Source: a virus
Strand: one strand, 5' to 3'
DNA length: 64,000 nt
IMG/VR virus record: IMGVR_UViG_3300037086_000474
Coordinates: 1-64,000 of that record
Position 1 is the first letter of the stretch, and the number at the start of each line of letters is the position of its first letter. The notes under the pieces were generated by a model that saw nothing but the letters and a program-made list of their open reading frames with translations, searched no databases and was not told the origin of the DNA. The position numbers and the translations under genes were made by a program. Shown piece by piece: positions 10,021 through 22,087 of this stretch.

Positions 10021-10572
10021 ATGAAGATGAAGATCCTCGAGAACGGCAAGATGAAGAAGGGTGTGTCTCCAGACTACAACTTCTTGTTCGACAAAACCAA
10101 TGGCAGATTCGCTCGCTGGGGCAGAGAACTCAATGATGATCCATCTTGGTCCCCAGCAGGTCCGGAGATACTTGACCTTGAACTGAGTTCAGGTGGATGT
10201 GCCGGAAAATGTCCTTGGTGTTATAAGTCAAATCCCGAACGACTTATCCATAACCTCACCTTCGATGAGTTCAAGATCATCTTCCACAAAATGCCACCCA
10301 TTCTCACTCAGATCGCTTTTGGAATCACCGACATTTCCACCAATCCAGATTTTTTCAATATTATGGAATACGCTCGAGAGCATGGAGTGATTCCAAACTA
10401 CACTACCCATGGTATTGGTGTGGATGAGGAAATTGCAAACGAAACAGTAAGAATATGCGGAGCGATTGCAGTTTCAGTGTATGAGCACACGAAGGAACAG
10501 GCCTACGAGGCCATCCAGAAATACAGAAAAGCCGTCCTACAAAGCAAGGTCTATGTAAAAATAAAGAAATAA
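10021..10572 (+). CDS. radical SAM protein, N-terminal half of a split gene
   Basis: 183 residues carrying the SAM-dependent 4Fe-4S site: Cys60, Cys64 and Cys67 in GGCAGKCPWCYKS, the C-x-x-x-C-x-x-C signature. The half-barrel continues through FGITDISTNPDF and IAVSVYEHTKEQAYEAIQKY, where homology to full-length enzymes appears to stop; the last 16 residues (RKAVLQSKVYVKIKK) look like read-through. The matching second half is at 11392-12102, with an endonuclease between. Expressed from its own leaderless promoter. C/G-rich codons unlike the inserted endonuclease. The substrate may be a peptide, since the C-terminal half is SPASM-like. Confidence 0.85.
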   Translation: MKMKILENGKMKKGVSPDYNFLFDKTNGRFARWGRELNDDPSWSPAGPEILDLELSSGGCAGKCPWCYKSNPERLIHNLTFDEFKIIFHKMPPILTQIAFGITDISTNPDFFNIMEYAREHGVIPNYTTHGIGVDEEIANETVRICGAIAVSVYEHTKEQAYEAIQKYRKAVLQSKVYVKIKK

Positions 10573-10574
10573 AT

Positions 10575-11402
10575 ATGAACTATATCCACGTGTATCAAAA
10601 CATATGTTTAGAAGCTAAAGGTAGGACCAAAACAATAGGTTTGGAAAAACATCATATTCTTCCAAAATCAATATACAGTCCTTTGGCAGCCCAAGTTCTA
10701 ACTAAAAATCAGTTTTTTGGGTTGAATTCAAAGGAGAACATTGTATTTCTAAATTTGAGAGAACATCTCTTTTGTCATCGATTGCTTGTTCGTATATTTT
10801 GTGGATTAGATGAAAATTGTTATCAGAGAATGATCTACGCATTTCATCAAATGAAAAGTCGAACTCCAAACAGTCACGTCTATGAAAGAGAAAGATCAGA
10901 ATATGCGAAAACATTATCAGTTTCTATGAGAGGAAAACCAAGTAGAGCAAAAGGAACTAAATGGACTGAAGAACATAGGAAGAGAAAGCATCATCTAAAA
11001 GATCGAACCTATGAAGACATATATGGTGAGGGAGCTCTTTTTCAAAAGAAGACGCGCTCAGAGGCTCATATTGGTATGAAGCCTTCTTTTGAAACTAAAC
11101 AGAAGATGCATTTATCAAAACTCAATCAGTCTGCTGATACGAGAAAGAAAATATCGATTAGTCACACTGGTATGAAAACTCGATTGGAAACTAAGGAAAA
11201 ACTCAGAAATATCTTTTCAGGACCTAATAGTCCAAATGCCGATAAGACAAAACATTTGTTTCTACATGAAGACGGTAGAGAGGAGCTAGCAACAAAAGCT
11301 GAAATGAAACAGAAATACGGAATTGTTGTATATCCTCTAGTGAATGGCAAACGAAATGTGATCAAAGGCTGGTCATTGAAGGAGAAAAGCTGTGGAAAAT
11401 GA
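10575..11402 (+). CDS. HNH-type homing endonuclease inserted in the radical SAM gene
   Basis: 275 residues. The N-terminal LEKHHILPKSIY, and EHLFCHRLLVRIF about 45 residues later, are the histidine motifs of a GIY/HNH-like homing nuclease core. Following basic NUMOD-like segments include SMRGKPSRAKGTKWTEEHRK and IGMKPSFETKQKM/TGMKTRLETKEKL. The end (KAEMKQKYGIVVYPLVNGKR) is a NUMOD1-like DNA-binding helix. Much more A/T-rich than both flanking halves. It starts 2 bases after one half and overlaps the next by 11, the arrangement of a gene splitter or intron-borne nuclease. Confidence 0.85.
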   Translation: MNYIHVYQNICLEAKGRTKTIGLEKHHILPKSIYSPLAAQVLTKNQFFGLNSKENIVFLNLREHLFCHRLLVRIFCGLDENCYQRMIYAFHQMKSRTPNSHVYERERSEYAKTLSVSMRGKPSRAKGTKWTEEHRKRKHHLKDRTYEDIYGEGALFQKKTRSEAHIGMKPSFETKQKMHLSKLNQSADTRKKISISHTGMKTRLETKEKLRNIFSGPNSPNADKTKHLFLHEDGREELATKAEMKQKYGIVVYPLVNGKRNVIKGWSLKEKSCGK

Positions 11403-12102
11403 AAAGATGATCGCAATCCCCAAAAAGCACATGCATGAGGACACTTCAGAATATGAAGAGATAACAGTGGCTGAGTTCTATAAACGGTATGGAGAACAGG
11501 CTGGGGAACAGCTAACTCAGGAGATTCTTGCCGTCAATATCCACTACATGTTGTCGCAGGAAACACTCAATGATGCGTTCAATGTTGTGCAAGACATTGT
11601 CCACGATGAGAGGCTGAAGGGTCTCAATGCCGTTGTATTCCTCCAATACAAAGATAAAGGTCGAGGCAAGGGAGAGTTCCATTCCATCCAGGACGCATGG
11701 GACTATAGACGCCTCATCGATTTCTGTGAGATGAGGAAGGTCGGATACGGTTTCGATAGCTGCTCCGCCCCTCTCTACTTCAAGGCAGTTGAAGAGCGCG
11801 AAAACTACAAACAGCTCGTCCAGTTTGCTGAGCCTTGCGAGAGCTCACTCTTTTCGAGCTACATCAACTGCTACGGTGAGTTCTATCCCTGTTCATTCAC
11901 TGAAGCTTCTGAAGGATGGAACACCGGTATTAGTGTTCTGAAGTGTGACAACTTTCTCAAGGATGTGTGGAATAATGAGAGAGTGGTGACATTCAGAAAC
12001 TCTCTCGTTGGCAGCTCTTCAAAGTGCATCAACTGCAAGTCTCAAAAGATTTGTAGGTCTTGTCCAGTCTACGATGTTTCTGCTTGCAAAGAGAAGGAGT
12101 AA
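11392..12102 (+). CDS. radical SAM protein, C-terminal half with SPASM-like cysteines
   Basis: 236 residues from a GTG with a good SD (AAGGAG), so it is translated on its own. The first ~47 residues have no clear counterpart in the enzyme; the barrel resumes at about AVNIHYMLSQETLNDAF. FVFLQYKD-like strands, GYGFDSCSAPLYFKAV and a cysteine-rich tail follow: CESSLFSSYINCYGEFYPC, then SSKCINCKSQKICRSCPVY. These would ligand auxiliary Fe-S clusters as in SPASM peptide-modifying enzymes. Together with 10021-10572 it could form a two-chain enzyme. Confidence 0.85.
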   Translation: MENEKMIAIPKKHMHEDTSEYEEITVAEFYKRYGEQAGEQLTQEILAVNIHYMLSQETLNDAFNVVQDIVHDERLKGLNAVVFLQYKDKGRGKGEFHSIQDAWDYRRLIDFCEMRKVGYGFDSCSAPLYFKAVEERENYKQLVQFAEPCESSLFSSYINCYGEFYPCSFTEASEGWNTGISVLKCDNFLKDVWNNERVVTFRNSLVGSSSKCINCKSQKICRSCPVYDVSACKEKE

Positions 12103-12368: not shown

Positions 12369-12737
12369 ATGAGTAGAAATGAGAAGCGGGCCGTCATCTA
12401 CGGCGCGATGTTTGACGAGAAAGATGTTCTCGAAACTCTTCCTCCCTCCAAAAGAGCCTCATTGATGCTTGCCACAAACGAAGACATGAATGCATACGAG
12501 CTCATGCAAAACTTCGTTGAAAATAATAAAACTTTTTCCTTTTATCATGTGTTTGCACGCGAACCCCATTACGACCTTTACTTCATTGGAAGGGATTGGG
12601 ACACAATCAAAGATAATGAAACTGGAAAGCGTTTTAGGGAAAGTGTAGCACTTCGTCTCAGTAAATATTTTGACAGAAAGGTTGTCTGTAGGACGATCGT
12701 GATCCCAACAGAGGAGATGTATGAAACTTCGACATAG
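12369..12737 (+). CDS. untagged homologue of the FVSNSSSSSF-tagged protein at 21707
   Basis: 122 residues from ATG 12369. TATTTT at 12357-12362 stands 6 bases upstream, the same -10-to-ATG spacing as the leaderless genes, but without the TTTTAGAG octamer; a TTG at 12342 is the alternative start. VIYGAMFDEKD and YFIGRDWDTIKDNETGKRF align with CIYGAHFSDIN and YIGREWSSVKDDETGHQF of the tagged gene at 21707. It lacks the tag, so the tag is separable from this fold. Confidence 0.72.
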   Translation: MSRNEKRAVIYGAMFDEKDVLETLPPSKRASLMLATNEDMNAYELMQNFVENNKTFSFYHVFAREPHYDLYFIGRDWDTIKDNETGKRFRESVALRLSKYFDRKVVCRTIVIPTEEMYETST

Positions 12738-13092
12738 TTTCGTTTCAAATAGTTCAACTACTTCATTTGTCATCATCGCCAGAAGGGCCTCTCTCAAAGA
12801 GATCGATGACCCCAATGTCAAAATCTATCTTGGTGAGTATGGTGATGGAGCCGCCTACGACAGGCCGAGCGAGGCCATCATCGCTTGGATCAAGGCAGAG
12901 AAAAGAGATGATCTCGATTTCTACTACGAATACCTTTCTGCTGGAGAAGAGCAAGAAGTCGAAGGATCTGATCTCGTCTCAAAGCTTGCTCTTCTCGCTC
13001 TCGATCCCAAGAAAGTGGTGATCAAGACTTTTGAGAAGAGCTACTATTTTCCAGAAGACGTGGAACAGTTCAAGGGGGTTGTAGAAAGATGA
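12721..13092 (+). CDS. FVSNSSSSSF-tagged protein 1
   Basis: 123 residues. N-terminal MKLRHSFVSNSSTTSFVII is a variant of the tag (T-T for S-S). The acidic body resembles tagged protein 7 (15342): both have G-D/E-G-A-A-Y, a tryptophan helix and a YYEYLSAGEE/YYSYVDFRDGED strand. SD GAGGAG; overlaps the preceding gene by 17 bases. The tag has no hydrophobic core and is not a Sec signal. Confidence 0.8.
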   Translation: MKLRHSFVSNSSTTSFVIIARRASLKEIDDPNVKIYLGEYGDGAAYDRPSEAIIAWIKAEKRDDLDFYYEYLSAGEEQEVEGSDLVSKLALLALDPKKVVIKTFEKSYYFPEDVEQFKGVVER

Positions 13093-13427
13093 AAATCAGG
13101 ACAGGTTTCGTCAGCAATAGTTCGTCATCGAGTTTTGTGGCTTGTCTTCCGGACAATTTTGATATCAATACTATCAACTTCGAGGAATGGGCACAGAGGG
13201 CTAGTGAGTACCACAGTCACAAAACCTTTACCACTGAAGACATCAAGAAGATGACCGAAGATTGTATCCTCTACAATGGTTGCTGTGAAGAGGACACCTT
13301 CTTTCACATCGCTCCCGACATGTTTAAAGACTATATCATCTGTCAAGTCGACGTTAGTAGCGACAGTGGAAGCTTCGCTTTTCTGAATACGAAGGAGAAA
13401 CAGAAGCTAAGGGAGATTCTGAAATGA
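13089..13427 (+). CDS. FVSNSSSSSF-tagged protein 2
   Basis: 112 residues, ATGA-coupled on both sides. Tag MKIRTGFVSNSSSSSFVA, then DFDINTINFEEWAQRASEY, a cysteine pair (CCEED) and IAPDMFKDYIICQVDV. It is a full-length paralogue of the next gene; the cysteines are only partly kept. Confidence 0.85.
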   Translation: MKIRTGFVSNSSSSSFVACLPDNFDINTINFEEWAQRASEYHSHKTFTTEDIKKMTEDCILYNGCCEEDTFFHIAPDMFKDYIICQVDVSSDSGSFAFLNTKEKQKLREILK

Positions 13428-13726
13428 AGATTCGAACAGGTTTTGTGAGCAATAGTTCCTCCTCAAGTTTCGTTGCCAAGCTGCCTGAAGATTTTGACAT
13501 CAACTCGATTGATTTCGAGGATTGGGCAACAAAGGCTTCTGTCTACGGCAAATCCTTTTGTGCTCAGGATATCAGAAAGATGACTGAGAGTTGTATCAAA
13601 AAGGGCAGGTGTCGTGAGGACGAAGAGTTCTTTGGCATTGCTCCAAAAATGTTTGAACGGTTCATCACCTACCGAACAAATGTCGAAGGATTTGGAAGTT
13701 TTGTCTTCCTGAAAAATACTCTTTAG
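13424..13726 (+). CDS. FVSNSSSSSF-tagged protein 3
   Basis: 100 residues, paralogue of protein 2 (DFDINSIDFEDWATKASVY; FFGIAPKMFERFITYR). The tag peptide is identical to protein 2 for its first 17 residues, but its DNA differs at several synonymous positions. Confidence 0.85.
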   Translation: MKIRTGFVSNSSSSSFVAKLPEDFDINSIDFEDWATKASVYGKSFCAQDIRKMTESCIKKGRCREDEEFFGIAPKMFERFITYRTNVEGFGSFVFLKNTL

Positions 13727-13736
13727 GAGAAATAAG

Positions 13737-14135
13737 ATGAAGGTAAGAAGCGGGTTTGTGAGCAACAGTTCGTCCTCGAGTTTCGTCATGCTCTTTCCGG
13801 AAGATTTCGATGTCGAAAAAATTGACTGGTCGAAGTTCGATTTCGTGGAGTTCGCAGCAGATTACTGCTACGAGGACGGCGACTATGACGATGACGCTGA
13901 AGAGATTGATGATCGAAAGCCGGTTGATGAGACTCTCAAGACTGACATCGTCAAGGGTCTCAAGAAACTTCTTGGTGGTGAAACGCTTTGGGACGAGGAA
14001 GATGCCACTGCCATGGCGGCAATTGAACTGCTTTTCCCGGACTACATCATCGCCGAAATTAGCACTGATAGTGACGGCGGTCAAATGGCTCTTGCTGACA
14101 GGGTAAAGGCCAAGAAGATTCTTGGGGTAGCATGA
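13737..14135 (+). CDS. FVSNSSSSSF-tagged protein 4
   Basis: 132 residues. SD AGGAGA 6 bases before the ATG. Tag MKVRSGFVSNSSSSSFVML, then PEDFDVEKIDWSKFDFVEF, a very acidic loop and FPDYIIAEISTDSDGGQ. Paralogue of protein 5 (14754): shared G-L-K-K-L, T/M-L-W-D and FPxYxIAE blocks. The D-F-D-x-x-x-I-D/N opening also links it to proteins 2 and 3. Confidence 0.85.
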   Translation: MKVRSGFVSNSSSSSFVMLFPEDFDVEKIDWSKFDFVEFAADYCYEDGDYDDDAEEIDDRKPVDETLKTDIVKGLKKLLGGETLWDEEDATAMAAIELLFPDYIIAEISTDSDGGQMALADRVKAKKILGVA

Positions 14136-14455
14136 TGAAGAAATTTCTGATTATCCTTGGACTTATTGTCATCGTAACAGGCGGGTTTGCCAGTGGATCC
14201 ATTGAGGATGGTTCCCACTGGCTTCCAGTTGAAGGAACTGCTAGTAATCACATTATCACCGACGGTCGGAACTACTCAATCTCGATAGATGAAATAGCAG
14301 CAGTTCAACTCTATACCAGCATTTCAGCGGCTATTTTTCTCAAGGGCAATGATAGGCCACTTTATATTCAGTTCGGCAGCAAAGAGGAAACTCAAAATTT
14401 TATTGCTGAAGTCTATAAAAGAATGGCTGCTATTCAGATACCAAAGGTGAAATGA
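14132..14455 (+). CDS. small secreted protein A (signal peptide)
   Basis: 107 residues with a signal peptide: MMKK, hydrophobic core FLIILGLIVIVTGG, then FASGS, a likely cleavage region. The mature part has IITDGRNYSISIDEIAAVQL and a C-terminal helix. Paralogue of the next gene. ATGA-coupled inside the tagged-protein array but itself untagged. Role unknown. Confidence 0.8.
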   Translation: MMKKFLIILGLIVIVTGGFASGSIEDGSHWLPVEGTASNHIITDGRNYSISIDEIAAVQLYTSISAAIFLKGNDRPLYIQFGSKEETQNFIAEVYKRMAAIQIPKVK

Positions 14456-14757
14456 TGAAGAAACTTTTGATTGTTTTGGCTCTCATTCTCTTGTCGCTCA
14501 ATGCCTTTGCTCAGGCAAATAGTTCTTACAACTATCACATGGTGACCGACAATGCCACATATGTGATCTCGATGGATGATGTTGTGAGTGCTATGATTTG
14601 GGACGGTAATCGTATCGAAGTCTTCTTCAAAGCTGATAAAGAGCCAATGTGGATTGTTCTCAAAAATAAAGAAGAGGCCGTTGCCCTTCTCAAAGAGATC
14701 ATCAGCAAGATGCAGACTTTGAAGTACAATTTTCCAAACGATAAAGCGAATCGATGA
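14452..14757 (+). CDS. small secreted protein B (signal peptide)
   Basis: 101 residues. Signal peptide MMKKLLIVLALILLSLNAFA with a canonical A-F-A cleavage site. The mature part aligns with protein A: MVTDNATYVISMDDVVSAMI and a final helix LLKEIISKM. ATGA-coupled on both sides. Confidence 0.82.
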   Translation: MMKKLLIVLALILLSLNAFAQANSSYNYHMVTDNATYVISMDDVVSAMIWDGNRIEVFFKADKEPMWIVLKNKEEAVALLKEIISKMQTLKYNFPNDKANR

Positions 14758-15158
14758 AGACTCGATCGGGGTTTATCAGTAACAGCTCCTCCTCAAGTTT
14801 CGTCATGCTTTTCCCTGATGATTTCGATATCGATAAGATTGATTGGAACAAACTTGATTACTCTATCTTCATGAAGTCGTTATCAACGATCGATGAGCAA
14901 GACATCAAAGAAAAGTTTAAGAATGCAGCTGCTGATGGTCTCAAGAAACTTTTCGAACGTGGTCCCATTGGAACCAGTGTCGAAGATGAAGGTTCTTTTG
15001 ATCGAGGAATGCTTTGGGACAGTGAAATCACTGATGCAACATGGGCCGTCACCAATCTCTTTCCTCAGTATGTGATAGCTGAATTCGAAACTGGTCCAGA
15101 AGATGGTAAAATCATTCTTATCAACACCGCAAAAGCAAAGACAGCTCTGAAAATATGA
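14754..15158 (+). CDS. FVSNSSSSSF-tagged protein 5
   Basis: 134 residues. Tag MKTRSGFISNSSSSSFVML (Val to Ile). Body paralogous to protein 4: PDDFDIDKIDWNKLDY, GLKKLFERG, GMLWDSEITDATWAV, LFPQYVIAEF. ATGA overlap with secreted protein B. Confidence 0.85.
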   Translation: MKTRSGFISNSSSSSFVMLFPDDFDIDKIDWNKLDYSIFMKSLSTIDEQDIKEKFKNAAADGLKKLFERGPIGTSVEDEGSFDRGMLWDSEITDATWAVTNLFPQYVIAEFETGPEDGKIILINTAKAKTALKI

Positions 15159-15307
15159 AAGTTCGATTAGGTTTTGTGAGCAACAGTTCCTCTAGTTCTT
15201 TCATAATATCAAACGGAGCAGAACCCGATCTGTATGAGAAGGCTTTTTCTGCCGTTGTTGAAGATTTGATCGAACACGGTCATTCATTTGAAAGGCACAC
15301 ACTCTAG
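15155..15307 (+). CDS. FVSNSSSSSF-tagged protein 6, short form
   Basis: Only 50 residues. The ATGA overlap at 15155 and the full tag (MKVRLGFVSNSSSSSFIIS) support it as real. The short body (NGAEPDLYEKAFSAVVEDL, then IEHGHSFERHTL) resembles the first part of tagged protein 9 (18069: NGVAPLYGKAVKALRDSGH), so it is a natural short form or a truncated relative. A tag on so small a body suggests that the tag is the functional part. Confidence 0.75.
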   Translation: MKVRLGFVSNSSSSSFIISNGAEPDLYEKAFSAVVEDLIEHGHSFERHTL

Positions 15308-15341
15308 CAGAAATAGATTCTGAAGAGGTGAAGGAGAAGAT

Positions 15342-15743
15342 ATGAAAATCAGGCAGGGATTCGTAAGTAACAGTTCCACGAGTTCTTTTTTCATGCTTTA
15401 TCGTGAGGCTACGAAGGAAGAGCTTGGTGACGAACATATCGTCATGAGCATGGATGGTGGAGAGGGCGCCGCTTATTTCCATGTCACACCTGAGATCGCA
15501 GAATGGCTCAAGAACAATGAGCCTTCTGAGCCTTATGATCTCTATTACAGCTATGTCGATTTCCGCGATGGAGAAGACACAATCAACAAAGCAGAACTTA
15601 TGGCCAAGGTTGCCACCATTCCTGACGGAGACATCAAATATCTCGTTCAGGATGTGGATCAGTGGTATCCTGAGAGTCTTGGTGACTTTCTCGAGTATTT
15701 CGACATGGAAGAAGAGGAAGAAGACGAGGACGAGGACACCTAG
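15342..15743 (+). CDS. FVSNSSSSSF-tagged protein 7
   Basis: 133 residues, SD GAAGGAGA. Tag MKIRQGFVSNSSTSSFFML. Body similar to tagged protein 1 (GGEGAAYFHVTPEIAEWLK; YYSYVDFRDGED). Ends in a run of Glu/Asp. Confidence 0.82.
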   Translation: MKIRQGFVSNSSTSSFFMLYREATKEELGDEHIVMSMDGGEGAAYFHVTPEIAEWLKNNEPSEPYDLYYSYVDFRDGEDTINKAELMAKVATIPDGDIKYLVQDVDQWYPESLGDFLEYFDMEEEEEDEDEDT

Positions 15744-15773
15744 TTTTAGAGTCATAACCACCTGATGTATAAT
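15744..15773 (+). promoter_or_regulatory. promoter, TTTTAGAG-N16-TATAAT class
   Basis: TTTTAGAG at 15744-15751, exactly 16 bases, TATAAT at 15768-15773. Unlike the leaderless copies, the gene starts 20 bases later with an SD (GAGAGGTGA), so this message has a short leader. Confidence 0.75.
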
Positions 15774-15793
15774 CATACTCAGAGAGGTGAAAG

Positions 15794-16666
15794 ATGTATC
15801 GTACTTTGAGCGGCAAAAAGATTGATGTTCTGAGCACGGATGCCATCGTCATTTCCTACGAAGATATCAGGGCTTCAGGACGTCCTTCTTTTTCTCGAGA
15901 GAATGCTCTTTATCATGAGCTTTGGAATCGAATTGATCAGTTCAGAGCGTCAAAGACCGCCACACTTGCCTTCACCTCCAAGACCCAGACACCCATAAAG
16001 AAGGACGTTTTTTCCATGTTCTCTGGACATTCTGACGGTTGGGATCAAATGCTGAGGTATTTTCAGCATGCCACCGACAAGCGGATGTTGCCGGTTCTGG
16101 ATCGCATCTTCCTTCAGGAAGACATCCACGATCTTCTCAAAGATCATCTCGAATACTACAAGAAGGCCATAGAGTACTTCGACAACAGCAGAAAGCTGCA
16201 GGCTGCCAAGAAGAAGAAACACGAACAGCTCGAAAAAAAGATCTCAACCAATCAGGCTCAGGTCTCTGCGGCTGTTTCACTTCTCATTCCCGAAATCGGA
16301 ACAAAGATGGTTCTTGCCGAAGACTGGCACATGAATCTTTACAACGAGTATCGCAACGTTGGTGTGCTGGAACTGACAGAGATCATCACAAGGAAGAATC
16401 AAAACCGGTTGGATCTCTACGGTGGCGAACGCATGAAGCACAATGAGATCGTGTTTCCCAAGGGCTCCATGCTGACTGTCGATCGCATCTACATCAGAAA
16501 GGGAGCCTCAGATTTCTCCTCACTGACTTTCTACATCGCTAAGGGTTCCAAGATCCAGCGTGCTGGACAGGAATATGTTTCTTCCAAGGCTCTCCGCTTC
16601 TGGGCCAAGCTGAGGGATGTCAATAACATGAAGGTTCAGTTTGTCGAAGAAACGGTCGTAAAGTAG
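15794..16666 (+). CDS. phage protein with central coiled coil and C-terminal beta domain
   Basis: 290 residues. The central segment (about 115-165) is a charged helix (AAKKKKHEQLEKKI). The C-terminal 90 residues form a beta-rich domain with FPKGSMLTVDRIYIRKGASD and ALRFWAKLRDVNNM, a module that I believe recurs in unrelated large-phage hypotheticals. It has its own promoter and interrupts the tagged array. Function unknown. Confidence 0.75.
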   Translation: MYRTLSGKKIDVLSTDAIVISYEDIRASGRPSFSRENALYHELWNRIDQFRASKTATLAFTSKTQTPIKKDVFSMFSGHSDGWDQMLRYFQHATDKRMLPVLDRIFLQEDIHDLLKDHLEYYKKAIEYFDNSRKLQAAKKKKHEQLEKKISTNQAQVSAAVSLLIPEIGTKMVLAEDWHMNLYNEYRNVGVLELTEIITRKNQNRLDLYGGERMKHNEIVFPKGSMLTVDRIYIRKGASDFSSLTFYIAKGSKIQRAGQEYVSSKALRFWAKLRDVNNMKVQFVEETVVK

Positions 16667-16667
16667 T

Positions 16668-17084
16668 ATGGAAACTGGAACGATCTATAAATTCAGCCTC
16701 AAAGTTGGTCACAAGCTCAAACACTGGCAATATAAGATTGCAGCGACCCATGAGGTCACTATTCTCATGGGGATGGTATTTCTTCTCAACAAAGTCTGCA
16801 TTCTATTGGGGTACGACTACAAAGATCGTGACATGATCTACGACTTTTCAATGTCTGATGCGCCTTTTGAAGGATATCAGATTATGCTTCATCGCATGGA
16901 TGATGTTCCATTAGAGGTGGATCAGCGATTGGGTCGCCTTTATTCTGTAGAGCTTTCAACAATCGGTGATTTTCAAGCAGAACCGTGCGTTCCAGAGTTT
17001 TTCAACAATAAGTATTTCAAACATTGGCCTGATCACATCTTTTTCAAGTTTGAAAAAACTACAGGATCTGGGATCATAAACTGA
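16668..17084 (+). CDS. unknown protein with a KIG-IY-like opening
   Basis: 138 residues, starting one base after the previous stop. METGTIYKFSLKV resembles the opening of the 3.7-9.6 kb family, but the terminal helix motif is absent. Contains a hydrophobic stretch VTILMGMVFLLNKVCILLG, possibly a membrane or buried segment. Confidence 0.6.
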   Translation: METGTIYKFSLKVGHKLKHWQYKIAATHEVTILMGMVFLLNKVCILLGYDYKDRDMIYDFSMSDAPFEGYQIMLHRMDDVPLEVDQRLGRLYSVELSTIGDFQAEPCVPEFFNNKYFKHWPDHIFFKFEKTTGSGIIN

Positions 17085-17103
17085 GAGAGGCATATTTCAC
17101 TCT

Positions 17104-17643
17104 ATGAAGATCCGGACCGGTTTCATCAGCAACAGCTCTTCAAGCTCTTTCATTATAGCATTCGCTAAGCTTCCTCATTCTATTGAGGAGATTCAAGAAA
17201 TGCTCTTTGGTAAAAAGGAACTCTACTACGACGCCTCCAAGCCTGGCAGCTACTACAACGCTTCTGCAACCGTGACCGCTCGTCGGGCTGCTGAAGATGT
17301 ATTTGCCAAGATTATGGAACAAGGTGCCCCCCTTACCATAAAGGAAATGACAGAAGAAGTCAGTCACGGAACTCTCTATAAGAGCAAGTGGTCGATCGGT
17401 CTCGACATCTCTGCAATCTACGACAAATTTGAAGACAAAAAAACTGGCGACGTTGATTATGATGCGGCCAACAAGGTTGTGGAAAAGCATGCTAGGGTCA
17501 TTGTCAAGAACTTTGTGAAGGATCACAAAGGAAAGTATTTCTTCATCTTTCACTATGCAGATGAAGATGGAAGCTTTGGCAGCATCATGGAACATCAGGG
17601 CCTTTTCAAGAAACTGCCGAGTTTGGTGATCAGCAATCACTAG
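17104..17643 (+). CDS. FVSNSSSSSF-tagged protein 8
   Basis: 179 residues. Tag MKIRTGFISNSSSSSFIIA. GCATATTT ends 7 bases before the ATG and there is no SD, which hints at a leaderless start, though no -35 octamer is seen. The body contains KLPHSIEEIQEMLFG and ends DEDGSFGSIMEHQGLFKKL, aligned with the end of tagged protein 10 (19690). Confidence 0.82.
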   Translation: MKIRTGFISNSSSSSFIIAFAKLPHSIEEIQEMLFGKKELYYDASKPGSYYNASATVTARRAAEDVFAKIMEQGAPLTIKEMTEEVSHGTLYKSKWSIGLDISAIYDKFEDKKTGDVDYDAANKVVEKHARVIVKNFVKDHKGKYFFIFHYADEDGSFGSIMEHQGLFKKLPSLVISNH

Positions 17644-17924
17644 TGAACAGGCTTACAGTTATTGACAGCGTGCTCCTCAAGGAGATACTTATTGATCTTG
17701 AGAAACATAAGGCCAAACATTCAAAGGCCAGACATCAGGTCAAAGAAACTTTTTTCAAAAAGGAATATTATCTAGAGTTTCTTGATCATGATGAGGCATT
17801 TAAAGCTTGCATATATCTGCTAGCAAGCAAAAAAAGGTATTTGCTGAAGTATCGTATTAGTTTTGTACATGAAAAAAACCGATTGTATTTAGTTTATGTT
17901 CCTCCGGAGATACTCGCACAATAG
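17643..17924 (+). CDS. small basic protein of unknown function
   Basis: 93 residues from a GTG overlapping the previous stop by one base. Lysine-rich helix (KHKAKHSKARHQVKETFFKK), then two strands. No family recognised. Confidence 0.6.
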   Translation: MNRLTVIDSVLLKEILIDLEKHKAKHSKARHQVKETFFKKEYYLEFLDHDEAFKACIYLLASKKRYLLKYRISFVHEKNRLYLVYVPPEILAQ

Positions 17925-17935
17925 GAGAAAACAAA

Positions 17936-18097
17936 ATGTCGGTAGACGCCAGAGTAGAAATTGAACTTGATTTAGCCCTTGAAGATTTTGAGCTTCTTGA
18001 AGAAGAGGCAAAGAATCTTAGCATAACGGTCGATGAACTTATTTTGAGGATGGTGAGGAGTCACATAGATGAAGGTACGCCAGGGATTCGTCAGTAA
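17936..18097 (+). CDS. small ribbon-helix-helix-like protein
   Basis: 53 residues, SD AGGAG 7 bases before the ATG. A beta strand (ARVEIELDL) followed by two helices, the second SITVDELILRMVRSHI, is the pattern of ribbon-helix-helix DNA-binding or antitoxin proteins. It overlaps tagged protein 9 by 29 bases in another frame. The assignment rests on pattern only. Confidence 0.5.
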   Translation: MSVDARVEIELDLALEDFELLEEEAKNLSITVDELILRMVRSHIDEGTPGIRQ

Positions 18098-18656
18098 CAG
18101 TTCTTCAGCATCGTTTGTTGTCATGCTGAATGGAGTGGCACCTCTTTATGGAAAAGCCGTAAAGGCTCTTCGAGACAGCGGTCATCTCAAGGATCTTAAG
18201 TTCCCTACTCCAAAACAAATCGCAATCGAAATGCTCACTGCGGCAAATGGACATGAAAGTTACGACGGAGCTGATGAGCGTTATTCTGCGATGATTGCAA
18301 GTATTACTAAGGTAGATGATGACATCGACTATGTTGCCTTTCCGTCAATCAATTATGAAACAGAAATCTTCAAGAAAGAGGAGGGTGTTGTTCTCGTCCA
18401 GACTTGCAACAACCAGTGGGATGACTGGATGGTTGCCATCGAAAAAATCAAGACCAAGTATCCAGATGCTCAGATTGAGATTTTTGACGAGGGTGGTGAA
18501 CCGGATGATCTCTTCTCTGAAGAGTGGAACATTTGGAACAGTGAGGATGACAACAAAAACAATCCCCACTTCCTTCACTTCAACCATTTGAAGATGGTGA
18601 GAGAGGGAAAGAAGGTTTGTTTTCTTCATGAAGATAAATTTTACAAAAGAAGTTAG
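18069..18656 (+). CDS. FVSNSSSSSF-tagged protein 9
   Basis: 195 residues, the largest tagged protein. Tag MKVRQGFVSNSSSASFVVM. Beginning (NGVAPLYGKAVKALRDSGH) related to the short protein 6. Later segments KTKYPDAQIEIFDEGGEPD and NPHFLHFNHLKMVREGKK suggest an alpha/beta fold. It precedes the second radical SAM gene by 22 bases. Confidence 0.82.
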   Translation: MKVRQGFVSNSSSASFVVMLNGVAPLYGKAVKALRDSGHLKDLKFPTPKQIAIEMLTAANGHESYDGADERYSAMIASITKVDDDIDYVAFPSINYETEIFKKEEGVVLVQTCNNQWDDWMVAIEKIKTKYPDAQIEIFDEGGEPDDLFSEEWNIWNSEDDNKNNPHFLHFNHLKMVREGKKVCFLHEDKFYKRS

Positions 18657-18678
18657 GATGCTTCTCATAAGGAATTAA

Positions 18679-19674
18679 ATGAATCTAATGTTGACATCGA
18701 AATGCAATAAGGGTTGTCCTTATTGTTTTTCGTCTAAATATAGAATCTCTGGTGGAATCGATACTAGTGAAATGAGCTTTGAGTATTTCACTAGTCTTCT
18801 CGACAAATTTCAGGATCTGAACATCGTGAAACTTCTAGGAGGAGAACCCACAAATCATCCAGAGTTCAAGAAATTTGTTACAGAGTTGATTAGGAGAAAA
18901 ATAGATTACATTCTCTTTACCAATCTTCTTTTTCCTGATGACATTACGGAATTTATGGCAGAGGCAGTCAAGGCTCCGCAAACTCGCCTTCTTATCAACT
19001 CAACTGACATTGACGTAAAAGACAGAATCAAAGTATGGTCTTCTAACTACAATAGGATCTATGAAAGTGCCTACGCTGTAAATAGAGAAGAAAATCTAAC
19101 TTGTGGAATCACTTTCGATGAGGAAAAAGACTATAAATATTACATAAACTATATTGATTTCTTATTGCAACACATTCATAAGATTGAATACGTAAGACTG
19201 AGTCTTACTTTTCCTGAAAAGTTGGATGACAAGAATCAGTTTTATGCAATCAACAACAAGGCCCTTGGTGAAAAGATGTTGATTGTTTCTAGAAAGATAA
19301 TTGATCTCAACGCTAAGCCAAATATAGATTGTACAATTTATCCTTGTATGTTTGAAAACAAAGAAGAGTGGAAATTTTTGAGAAAGTTCTCGGATTCGCC
19401 GATTTCTACTAGATGCATGAACAATCATCACCAAGTTCTAAATACTGGTGAGATGTTCTATTGTTATCCTCTGAGAGGATCTTTAGACGATGATATTATT
19501 GGATATGAAACGAATGCTCAGATTCTAAAAGAAATGAAACGGCGATATGATGTACTTTTTTCTATGGTGGAAAAACCGGAAGTATGTAAAGCGTGCGCCT
19601 TTTTTAAGGCAGAAGAATGTCCTGGGCCATGCTTGGGGTTTTACGATTTGTCGAAGATTGAGAAACCATTTTAG
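18679..19674 (+). CDS. radical SAM protein with C-terminal cysteine cluster
   Basis: 331 residues. CNKGCPYC at residues 9-16 is the C-x-x-x-C-x-x-C cluster site. KLLGGEPTNHPEFKKF is the G-G-E-P SAM-binding motif. The C-terminal part has CTIYPCMF, STRCMNNHHQVLNTGEMFYC and CKACAFFKAEECPGPC, fitting auxiliary Fe-S cluster binding (SPASM/twitch-like). SD AAGGAA. Placed between tagged proteins 9 and 10 and more A/T-rich than the split radical SAM gene, so it is a separate lineage rather than a duplicate. A peptide substrate is plausible but unproven. Confidence 0.9.
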   Translation: MNLMLTSKCNKGCPYCFSSKYRISGGIDTSEMSFEYFTSLLDKFQDLNIVKLLGGEPTNHPEFKKFVTELIRRKIDYILFTNLLFPDDITEFMAEAVKAPQTRLLINSTDIDVKDRIKVWSSNYNRIYESAYAVNREENLTCGITFDEEKDYKYYINYIDFLLQHIHKIEYVRLSLTFPEKLDDKNQFYAINNKALGEKMLIVSRKIIDLNAKPNIDCTIYPCMFENKEEWKFLRKFSDSPISTRCMNNHHQVLNTGEMFYCYPLRGSLDDDIIGYETNAQILKEMKRRYDVLFSMVEKPEVCKACAFFKAEECPGPCLGFYDLSKIEKPF

Positions 19675-19689
19675 AAACAGGAGAAATAT

Positions 19690-20103
19690 ATGAAAATGAG
19701 AAGTGGATTTGTATCAAACAGTTCTTCAAGTTCGTTCATGATTGCCTTCAAGGGAAAGCCAACTAAGGATCAGTGGGATCAAATTTTCAAGATTGACAAG
19801 ACCTCACCAATCTATGGTATCATAGCAGAAATTGTTTCAACCATCGAAGAATGTGTTGAACACACCTTCTATCCGTCTGCCGACTATCCAGCTTCACCGT
19901 CAAATGACTACTCCGACTATTTAAGAGATGAGGAGGGCGGAGACGAAGGAGATAAAAACGTTTGGGAAGCCCTCAAAAACGGCTATACTGTAATGATCGG
20001 TGATTTCGCAGATGACAATGGTCCAATCGAGTCAATGCTCTGTGGGCAGGATCTCTTCTACAAAGACGAAAATTTGATTATCAAGCATGATGGAGGCTAT
20101 TGA
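19690..20103 (+). CDS. FVSNSSSSSF-tagged protein 10
   Basis: 137 residues, SD AGGAGA, 15 bases after the radical SAM stop. Tag MKMRSGFVSNSSSSSFMIA; body FKGKPTKDQWDQIFKIDK and an end (DDNGPIESMLCGQDLFYKD) matching tagged protein 8. Confidence 0.85.
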   Translation: MKMRSGFVSNSSSSSFMIAFKGKPTKDQWDQIFKIDKTSPIYGIIAEIVSTIEECVEHTFYPSADYPASPSNDYSDYLRDEEGGDEGDKNVWEALKNGYTVMIGDFADDNGPIESMLCGQDLFYKDENLIIKHDGGY

Positions 20104-20447
20104 TGAAGATCAGAAGTGGATTTGTTTCAAATAGTTCAACCAGTTCATTCATCATGCTTGGTTTCAAGGTCAAATATGAAGAAGATCTTGAAACCAAGGT
20201 GGATGAATTCAACGAGCGCATAGCCAATTATGTGAAACTTGAACACTTAAGTGGAGACAGTGATGATACCTATCTCGGTAAGATTCTACTCTATGAATCT
20301 GATGAAGATGGTTACATTTCACCCAAGTCTATCTCTCTCGATGAGGTCAAAAAGTTTGAGAAAGGACTTGATCTTCATCGATATATTTTCAAAGGTGTCT
20401 TTGGATATGAGATGCCAGAACTCTCAATCATAGGTGGTTCAATCTGA
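20103..20447 (+). CDS. FVSNSSSSSF-tagged protein 11
   Basis: 114 residues from 20103, or one more from the ATGA-overlapping ATG at 20100; tag alignment (MKIRSGFVSNSSTSSF) favours 20103. The body shares a Y/F-L-G-K/R-I/V-L pattern and a final G-V-x-Y/F segment with tagged protein 13 (21369). Confidence 0.82.
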   Translation: MKIRSGFVSNSSTSSFIMLGFKVKYEEDLETKVDEFNERIANYVKLEHLSGDSDDTYLGKILLYESDEDGYISPKSISLDEVKKFEKGLDLHRYIFKGVFGYEMPELSIIGGSI

Positions 20448-20881
20448 GAATTCGAATGGGTTTCGTCAGCAATAGCTCATCATCCTCTTTCTATATCACC
20501 AACAAATCTGACAAAACTCTCACTCTTGTAGATTTTGTGAAAGAGAACCCTCAACTTATCAAACAATATCTTGATAGGTATTGGGACAACCATGGTGAAG
20601 GAGAATACCCTGATCCATATGCTGAGGACGACGACGAATATACCATTTATGAAGCCAAACAACTTCTAAGTAATGGGTATCCTACTAAACACTTTACTCA
20701 GAAAAGAATGATTGAGGAGGCTGCTGATAAATTCTATTTCGAATGGAATCCACGCGAGATGTCCTCATGCACTTTTGCGGATGATGATGGTTCGACGCTT
20801 GGACAAGTTCTCCGAATAATACTTGAAAAAGATGGAGAAAGTAAAAATTTTCGATGGCACTTTAGCCAATCCAATCAATAG
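20444..20881 (+). CDS. FVSNSSSSSF-tagged protein 12, probable CTG start
   Basis: The only nearby ATG (20456) would begin inside the tag (MGFVSNSS). Reading back four codons gives CTG-AGA-ATT-CGA, i.e. (M)-R-I-R-M-G-F-V-S-N-S, which aligns position for position with the other tags. That CTG shares CTGA with the preceding stop, the same 4-base coupling as its neighbours. 145 residues. Body paralogous to the next gene (LTLVDFVKENPQLIKQYLD). Confidence 0.75.
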   Translation: MRIRMGFVSNSSSSSFYITNKSDKTLTLVDFVKENPQLIKQYLDRYWDNHGEGEYPDPYAEDDDEYTIYEAKQLLSNGYPTKHFTQKRMIEEAADKFYFEWNPREMSSCTFADDDGSTLGQVLRIILEKDGESKNFRWHFSQSNQ

Positions 20882-20896
20882 CATATTTTATTCATC

Positions 20897-21343
20897 ATGA
20901 AACTTAGACAAGGATTCGTCAGCAATAGCTCATCTTGCTCATTTCTTATTACGAACACATCCGATAAATCTCTTACATTAGTGGATTTTGTGAAAGAAAA
21001 TCCTCAACTCATCAAAGAATACCTTGACGAATACTGGAGCAATGAAAGTGACGATCCATATCCTGATCCTTATATTGAAGAATTCGAGGGAGATGAGGCC
21101 GTTAAGGAAGCCAAAAAACTTCTGAGTGGTAACGAGGGTAGATACGAATACACTCAGGCTGCTCTTGTATTGGGTGCAGGCACGGGTCCCCGATATAAAA
21201 CCAATTTTTCTCCTCATTCAAGCAAGCTCTGTGAGTTTGGAGATGAAGATGGTACAGTAATTGGTCAGGTTTTTGATTATGCTCTTAGACATGGTGGTCA
21301 CAGCAAGAATTGGAAGTGGAAACTTGACCACATGAATCGATAG
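20897..21343 (+). CDS. FVSNSSSSSF-tagged protein 13a (sister of protein 12)
   Basis: 148 residues. Tag MKLRQGFVSNSSSCSFLIT; body LTLVDFVKENPQLIKEYLD and GDEDGTVIGQVFDYAL parallel the previous gene. No SD: TATTTT at 20884-20889 lies 7 bases before the ATG with CTTTAGCC 16 bases further up, a degenerate copy of the leaderless promoter. Confidence 0.83.
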   Translation: MKLRQGFVSNSSSCSFLITNTSDKSLTLVDFVKENPQLIKEYLDEYWSNESDDPYPDPYIEEFEGDEAVKEAKKLLSGNEGRYEYTQAALVLGAGTGPRYKTNFSPHSSKLCEFGDEDGTVIGQVFDYALRHGGHSKNWKWKLDHMNR

Positions 21344-21368
21344 CCTCTTTTAAAAGGAAAAAAAACAA

Positions 21369-21710
21369 ATGAAAATCAGAGAAGGTTTTGTCAGCAACAG
21401 TTCTACGAGTTCATTCATAGTTTTGGCCTGTGAGATTCCAGAAAATATTCTCACAGATGACGCGAGAAAAGCTCTGATAGAGAAAAGCATGCTTTTGCAA
21501 AATGACGGCGAGGAGTTTCTTGGAAGAGTTCTTTGGACTGCCAGTGATGATAGTGGCTTTGAAGTCAGAGACTTCCAAGAGTTCAGAGATGACATGGCAA
21601 ATGAATATGGCAAAGTTGTTGCAGAGGCTTCAAATCTGGGCATCAATAGCCCAGTAAAAATAATTTATGGAGTCGCCTATGAAGGTGGATTCTGTGAGGT
21701 GGATGAATGA
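21369..21710 (+). CDS. FVSNSSSSSF-tagged protein 13
   Basis: 113 residues, SD AAGGAAA. Tag MKIREGFVSNSSTSSFIVL. Body CEIPENILTDDARKALIEK, EEFLGRVLWTASDDSG and a final strand IIYGVAYEGGF. Distantly like tagged protein 11. Confidence 0.82.
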   Translation: MKIREGFVSNSSTSSFIVLACEIPENILTDDARKALIEKSMLLQNDGEEFLGRVLWTASDDSGFEVRDFQEFRDDMANEYGKVVAEASNLGINSPVKIIYGVAYEGGFCEVDE

Positions 21711-22087
21711 AGATCAGACAGGGGTTTGTTTCAAACAGTTCTGCTAGTTCTTTTTGTATTTATGGGGCTCACTTTTCAGACATCAATGAGGCCGTTGAGT
21801 TGATTTCTGAGATCGGTGGAGATATTATGCTTGTCGACCAGGCTAAAGCTTTACTTGGTGGTGACGAGGGTGACCCAAACGATCTCTTAGAACAGTGGGC
21901 TGATAAAGAGGATCTCTCTTTTATCAGAGGTCCAGATGGAGATGGAGTGTATATTGGCCGTGAATGGTCATCAGTCAAAGATGATGAAACTGGTCACCAG
22001 TTCAAAGATTCTATAGAAGAAAAACTCAAAACAATTTTCGGAAAGGTTGCTTTCGGTACTTTATCTGAAGCATGGTATGATGGATAA
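21707..22087 (+). CDS. FVSNSSSSSF-tagged protein 14, last of the array
   Basis: 126 residues, ATGA-coupled. Tag MKIRQGFVSNSSASSFCIY. The body is homologous to the untagged protein at 12369 (YIGREWSSVKDDETGHQF). A strong terminator follows, ending the array. Confidence 0.84.
   Translation: MKIRQGFVSNSSASSFCIYGAHFSDINEAVELISEIGGDIMLVDQAKALLGGDEGDPNDLLEQWADKEDLSFIRGPDGDGVYIGREWSSVKDDETGHQFKDSIEEKLKTIFGKVAFGTLSEAWYDG

Follow-up and report, generated by a model that had tools for sequence, protein, structure and literature searches.

The first 64,000 nucleotides of the IMG/VR virus record IMGVR_UViG_3300037086_000474 (112,462 bp in all), referred to here as the window, contain a cluster of 15 open reading frames (ORFs) between positions 12721 and 22087 that all open with the same peptide, MKxRxGFVSNSSSSSF; this N-terminal tag and the radical S-adenosylmethionine (rSAM) enzyme gene lying just upstream of it are the subject of the present analysis (Table 1). 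The tag can be written as the pattern M-K-x-R-x-[GS]-F-[VI]-S-N-S-S-x-x-S-F, and its degenerate DNA form matches exactly these 15 sites in the window, against 0.19 expected (standard deviation 0.46, maximum 2, in 100 shuffles); a search of the remainder of the record revealed no further tag. A previous sequence-only reading of this DNA had proposed the same 15 starts and described the protein bodies behind them as unlike. All 15 were confirmed as tagged ORFs, that at 20444 only if CTG is its start codon (CTG replaces ATG at tag position 1, and the first ATG, at 20456, falls within the tag), and the bodies were distributed over 10 sequence clusters. Every one of the 15 proteins matched PHROG 7397, a family of unknown function (best match 1.8e-13), with residues 1-54 of tagged protein 1 aligned to profile positions 1-51, and no useful match was obtained for the tagged proteins in Pfam and NCBIfam. 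The hydrophobic core expected of a Sec signal peptide is missing, as the centre of FVSNSSSSSF is polar, in agreement with the earlier statement that the tag is not such a signal. At 14132-14757 the tag cluster is broken by a pair of neighbouring paralogous ORFs whose N-termini are hydrophobic and Sec-like (MMKKFLIILGLIVIV, MMKKLLIVLALILLS).

The rSAM gene of the window (10021-12102) consists of two halves separated by an insert of ~1 kb, which carries an HNH/NUMOD3-like ORF. Judging from the reading frame around the junction, an exon boundary likely lies near 11530, and an Rfam search of the split gene matched no intron family. The rSAM gene of Cronobacter phage leB is also in two pieces; as both genes are split, homing may have repeatedly targeted the rSAM gene.

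Table 1. Genes of the tag cluster and its rSAM partner in the window
Feature	Coordinates	Strand	Evidence
rSAM/SPASM enzyme, N-terminal half (CAGKCPWC cluster motif)	10021..10572	+	Pfam Radical_SAM 1e-5; A3 profile 5.5e-63; alignment with bacterial partners
HNH/NUMOD3-like ORF in the insert splitting the rSAM gene	10575..11402	+	weak Pfam AHH and NUMOD3 matches
rSAM/SPASM enzyme, C-terminal half (SPASM part)	11392..12102	+	Pfam SPASM 3e-4; A3 profile 5.1e-66
Tagged protein 1, 123 aa, clusters with 15342	12721..13092	+	
Tagged protein 2, 112 aa, LPxxFD cluster	13089..13427	+	
Tagged protein 3, 100 aa, LPxxFD cluster	13424..13726	+	
Tagged protein 4, 132 aa, LPxxFD cluster	13737..14135	+	
Tagged protein 5, 134 aa, LPxxFD cluster	14754..15158	+	
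Tagged protein 6, 50 aa, singleton	15155..15307	+	
Tagged protein 7, 133 aa, clusters with 12721	15342..15743	+	
Tagged protein 8, 179 aa, 31-member cluster, modelled	17104..17643	+	
Tagged protein 9, 195 aa, 14-member cluster	18069..18656	+	
Second, different radical-SAM protein within the tag cluster	18679..19674	+	Pfam Radical_SAM 2e-12; just 23 bits with the partner profile
Tagged protein 10, 137 aa, 51-member cluster including bacterial AVAST-operon proteins, modelled	19690..20103	+	
Tagged protein 11, 114 aa, singleton	20103..20447	+	
Tagged protein 12, 145 aa, CTG at tag position 1, clusters with 20897	20444..20881	+	
Tagged protein 13, 148 aa, clusters with 20444	20897..21343	+	
Tagged protein 14, 113 aa, singleton	21369..21710	+	
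Tagged protein 15, 126 aa, 47-member CIYG cluster	21707..22087	+	

In bacteria, the tagged gene adjoins a gene for an rSAM protein of ~350 amino acids (aa), in which both Pfam Radical_SAM and SPASM were matched, placing it among the rSAM/SPASM enzymes. Of the 50 viral records that bear the tag and are 50 kb or longer, 38 contained the enzyme according to a profile built from 38 such partner proteins (the A3 profile). The reverse search, in which viral contigs were chosen by rSAM motifs alone with a 9-row rSAM alignment, found a tagged ORF nearby in 68 of 80 loci by regular expression and in 76 of 85 (including five Lachnospiraceae loci) by a hidden Markov model of the tag, the scores of which were cleanly bimodal. 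Both partners could be placed in 67 viral loci; there, all 244 tags share the strand of the rSAM gene, 205 lie downstream of it and the median nearest gap is 548 bp. When 1,572 neighbouring ORFs were clustered, the tagged family was the sole recurrent neighbour (65 of 80 rSAM loci); the next family, judged by eye to be an RNA ligase, occurred in 11 of 80, and no export or leader-cleavage gene recurred. Similarly, the enzyme was present in each of the 13 tag-bearing cellular genomes checked, and all five rSAM loci found among 299 Lachnospiraceae adjoin a tagged ORF. Tag and rSAM are thus close to a closed two-component system. In addition, threonine at tag position 14 was found in 12 of 12 tags in the bacterial A7-type enzyme clade vs 29 of 410 elsewhere; tag variants track the enzyme clade, for which common descent could be an alternative cause.

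Among rSAM enzymes of solved structure, SkfB and SuiB, both peptide maturases, come nearest, and the best NCBIfam relatives are also peptide maturases (mycofactocin and WgkB models), all below cut-offs. As seen in the A3 alignment and at L234-L237, L125 and L143, the spacing of the cluster motif varies, being Cx3Cx2C in the window and in bacteria and having a longer first gap in many phages, and a Lachnospiraceae-type rSAM clade has no CxxC.

A wider investigation of the distribution of the tag matched its ATG-anchored pattern in at least 120 stretches of viral contigs and in only 27 stretches when one genome per species (~85,000 bacterial and archaeal species) was searched in the same way, implying that the tag is mainly viral; the tag pattern used for whole genomes overlooks genuine tags in which position 6 is Asp. 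The rare matches in cellular assemblies belong to Bacillota, Spirochaetia and Treponema, Verrucomicrobia, Deltaproteobacteria, Sulfuricurvum, and Asgard and Thermoplasmata metagenome-assembled genomes, and some of them may be viral contigs within such assemblies. A tblastn search of the short tag peptide against the phage collection gave no match, most likely due to low-complexity filtering of the serines. The collected loci yielded 454 distinct tagged proteins with 108 body clusters, and in 453 of these the tag is fixed to the N-terminus to within a single codon: 447 have ATG, GTG or TTG at position 1, six have ATG one codon upstream, and the ORF at 20444 of the window is the sole case of CTG. 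Among 278 tags from rSAM-chosen loci, N10 and S12 are invariant (100%), followed by S11 and R4 (99.6%), F7 (99%) and K2 (98%, the rest being R), and position 16 is F or Y throughout. In both phages and bacteria, a conserved tag locked to the N-terminus is tightly paired with one rSAM family.

The sequence-only reading had also noted that the tag serines switch between AGY and TCN codons, and concluded that the peptide itself is selected. Across the wider set all serine positions indeed use both codon boxes (position 11, AGY 296 and TCN 126), whereas in the window AGY is invariant at position 11 and TCN at position 12, so that only some serine positions switch there. Such constancy would fit a nucleic-acid element at the 5' end, either a translation signal or a recombination module, with the peptide as its by-product, and so would the codon-box agreement between same-locus tags on unrelated bodies, which exceeds expectation at position 11 (0.75 vs 0.58) and position 12 (0.68 vs 0.50). 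However, the residues stay fixed across genomes while both boxes are used at all serine positions, and an Rfam search of the window gave no match, which leaves this explanation extremely improbable. The excess agreement rather makes it likely that some copying of the 5' end of tag genes within a genome adds to selection at the protein level, and the conclusion that the peptide is selected therefore stands.

The bodies have a median length of ~134 aa and are net acidic in 97% of cases. Profile comparison of the 17 largest clusters and four small window clusters joined only two pairs. A 'DxDG' loop, visible in many window bodies, was considered as a second common motif and rejected, as its excess over shuffles was no more than about twofold among the representatives of the clusters. 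Structures were modelled for two body families. In the 17104 model (predicted local distance difference test, pLDDT, of 87), residues 1-3 and 7-9 were below 50 and strand 1 covered residues 13-20; in the 19690 model (pLDDT 79.5), residues 6-10 were below 50 and strand 1 covered residues 13-21. The first ten residues had a mean pLDDT of 47-48. Low confidence up to about N10, together with the position of S13-F16 in strand 1, suggests that the first half of the tag is a free tail and the second half structural; in these models residues 1-9 are predicted to be disordered and residues 13-16 to begin the first beta-strand of the body. The order of elements is broadly alike in the two models, and a remote common fold of many bodies is possible, although sequence and profile comparisons give no sign of it. 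Foldseek found no confident match for the 17104 model in the PDB and viral models, or for the 19690 model in viral models only.

It had been recognized from the outset that the tag might simply be the first strand of a shared domain. The models agree with this for S13-F16, which open strand 1 in both families, but not for the low-confidence first ten residues. An explanation in which the tag belongs to one very diverged common domain and is kept for folding would account for this strand and for the similar element order; on the other hand, K2, R4, F7 and N10 are conserved to at least 98% in the low-confidence part, the bodies were not united by profile comparison, and a role in folding would by itself leave the rSAM pairing unaccounted for. 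We therefore regard it as very improbable.

Among phage isolates, the rSAM gene was found in 173 of 50,697 phage records, nearly all of them Klebsiella, Enterobacter, Cronobacter, Citrobacter and Escherichia phages of the RB16/RB43 kind, plus Vibrio phage D479. The RB16 enzyme is RB16p156 and the tagged genes, on the same strand, are RB16p111 and RB16p106, which sit amid small accessory genes. RB16p109 (L243 4062-6281; RB16 67920-70139), annotated with a vWA-like N-terminus, lies between these two tagged genes. The system is present in culturable enterobacterial phages, namely the E. coli phages RB16 and RB43 as well as KP27.

In eight cellular loci, a STAND-type protein is encoded beside the tag/rSAM pair: Acetatifactor (L124), Lachnospiraceae (L131), Clostridia (L128), Lachnobacterium (L138), Veillonella (L145/L242), Sulfuricurvum (L137) and two Verrucomicrobia (L126 and L148). 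These proteins gave partial PADLOC matches to Avs2 profiles (in L148 the match is weak, 0.003, and the gene is cut), so that the Avs-type STAND NTPase expected of AVAST is present in eight bacterial tag loci as far as partial matches indicate. Most of these loci also have a small untagged protein of ~124-143 aa between the STAND gene and the tag/rSAM pair (L124 3437-3865, L137 2088-2495, L242 2831-3241), the L124 and L137 copies of which matched no family in Pfam and PADLOC. In Acetatifactor and Veillonella, a metallo-beta-lactamase (MBL)-fold protein of the Avs1a/LmuA type also precedes (Avs1a 4.9e-52 and 1.7e-36), and the operons hold a trypsin-STAND protein; the finished chromosome of Veillonella parvula SKV38 encodes, in this order, MBL, trypsin-STAND, small protein, tagged protein, rSAM and a 302-aa protein. 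MBL-protease pairs of this kind have been reported to act as gated nucleases of the AVAST and Hachiman systems (PMC12799240). The bacterial loci L125, L143, L132, L147 and L234-L237 contain the rSAM gene and at least one tagged gene, with no STAND gene seen.

These settings bear on a possible role of the tag in phage particles. The internal proteins of phage T4 share a short common N-terminus, a capsid-targeting sequence, on different bodies, and a tag of the same plan could direct proteins into the phage head for injection. Nevertheless, the tag accompanies an rSAM gene and no prohead protease, in bacteria tag and rSAM also occur together on the chromosome, next to STAND genes, and the RB16 tag genes are surrounded by small accessory genes; a role in capsid targeting thus appears highly unlikely.

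The tag is probably the substrate-recognition sequence of the co-encoded rSAM/SPASM enzyme, as pairing, shared strand, adjacency and clade-specific tag variants all suggest that rSAM recognizes the tag directly. From this genetic pairing we infer an enzyme-substrate contact, and likewise a modified residue, its chemistry and a purpose. One rSAM enzyme would serve many substrates, whatever body follows the tag, and the binding handle would be the basic-then-polar tail with K2, R4, F7, V8, N10, S11, S12 and F/Y16. The tag is probably the modified site as well: because nothing else is common to ~100 bodies unrelated in sequence, a modified residue would more likely belong to the tag than to the body. 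Aromatic cross-linking (here at F7 or F16), serine oxidation and epimerisation belong to the chemistries of SPASM enzymes and are named as candidates only. Of the targeting, processing and modification roles suggested by the sequence-only reading, modification fits these data; the co-occurring rSAM enzyme had been overlooked.

It is also possible, if rather doubtful, that the tag is a pure leader on which rSAM docks to modify the variable bodies, perhaps near their conserved C-terminal ends, following the logic of ribosomally synthesized and post-translationally modified peptides (RiPPs). Leader-dependent rSAM/SPASM enzymes are known, such as the streptide maturase (PMC8326336), and several body families have short conserved C-terminal sequences; however, the bodies have no residue or motif in common, the DxDG-like loop included, and are of considerable median length rather than short peptides, the two modelled ones being folded domains.

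Several observations weigh against the tag being the recognition sequence of rSAM. Twelve of the 50 tag-bearing viral records have no rSAM gene; these are shorter on median and contain fewer tags (mean 1.9 vs 5.6, p 5e-5), and perhaps they are fragments or the enzyme is supplied by the host. In RB16 and RB43 the rSAM gene lies ~20 kb away from the tag genes, and the window's own rSAM gene is interrupted, its splicing being putative. S13-F16 of the tag are also structural. In those rSAM proteins that were scanned with Pfam there was no PqqD/RRE domain, a domain that is common but not universal in rSAM maturases, as not all of them need it.

In phages, the purpose of such a modification might be host take-over or counter-defence, which would fit rapidly varying accessory proteins, and in bacteria it might be sensing or switching in AVAST-like operons, a setting which suggests that the modification matters in phage-host conflict. 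More tentatively, the pair may represent a general protein-tagging system, in which a 16-residue N-terminal handle allows one rSAM enzyme to introduce one and the same novel modification into whichever protein bears it, on fast-changing small proteins in phages and in AVAST-like operons in bacteria, where the modified tag may be a signal or switch. If true, a promiscuous rSAM enzyme directed by a tag would open a new route to the modification of folded proteins; the pairing offers a concrete candidate enzyme and substrate where phage proteins have so far gone unannotated in large numbers. Searches of the open-access literature yielded no account of the tag, nor of an rSAM partner of it in phages or AVAST.

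The system shows partial resemblance to several known ones. PHROG 7397, matched by all window tagged proteins, is an unannotated family in which neither the tag nor the rSAM partner is recorded. The T4 internal proteins differ in the sequence of their N-terminus, whereas the present tag has rSAM as its partner and also occurs in bacterial chromosomes. AVAST systems with an MBL nuclease and trypsin-STAND (PMC12799240) resemble the Acetatifactor and Veillonella operons, which hold both proteins; unlike them, the tag operons add a small protein, a tagged protein and rSAM, their STAND matches are partial and mostly to Avs2 profiles, and phages carry tag and rSAM with no STAND gene seen nearby. There is also a parallel with the RiPP rSAM/SPASM maturases (SkfB, SuiB/streptide and mycofactocin MftC), which likewise combine rSAM and SPASM and act on substrates with a conserved N-terminus and a variable remainder. 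In contrast to these, the rSAM of the tag system reaches no curated maturase model, and instead of short precursor peptides with leader and core its substrates would be many proteins of ~134 aa, the two modelled ones being folded domains. From RiPPs, rSAM maturases that act on substrates with a conserved N-terminus are already known; what is new to us is their presence in phages and their putative use on numerous folded proteins, as many as 15 in one genome.

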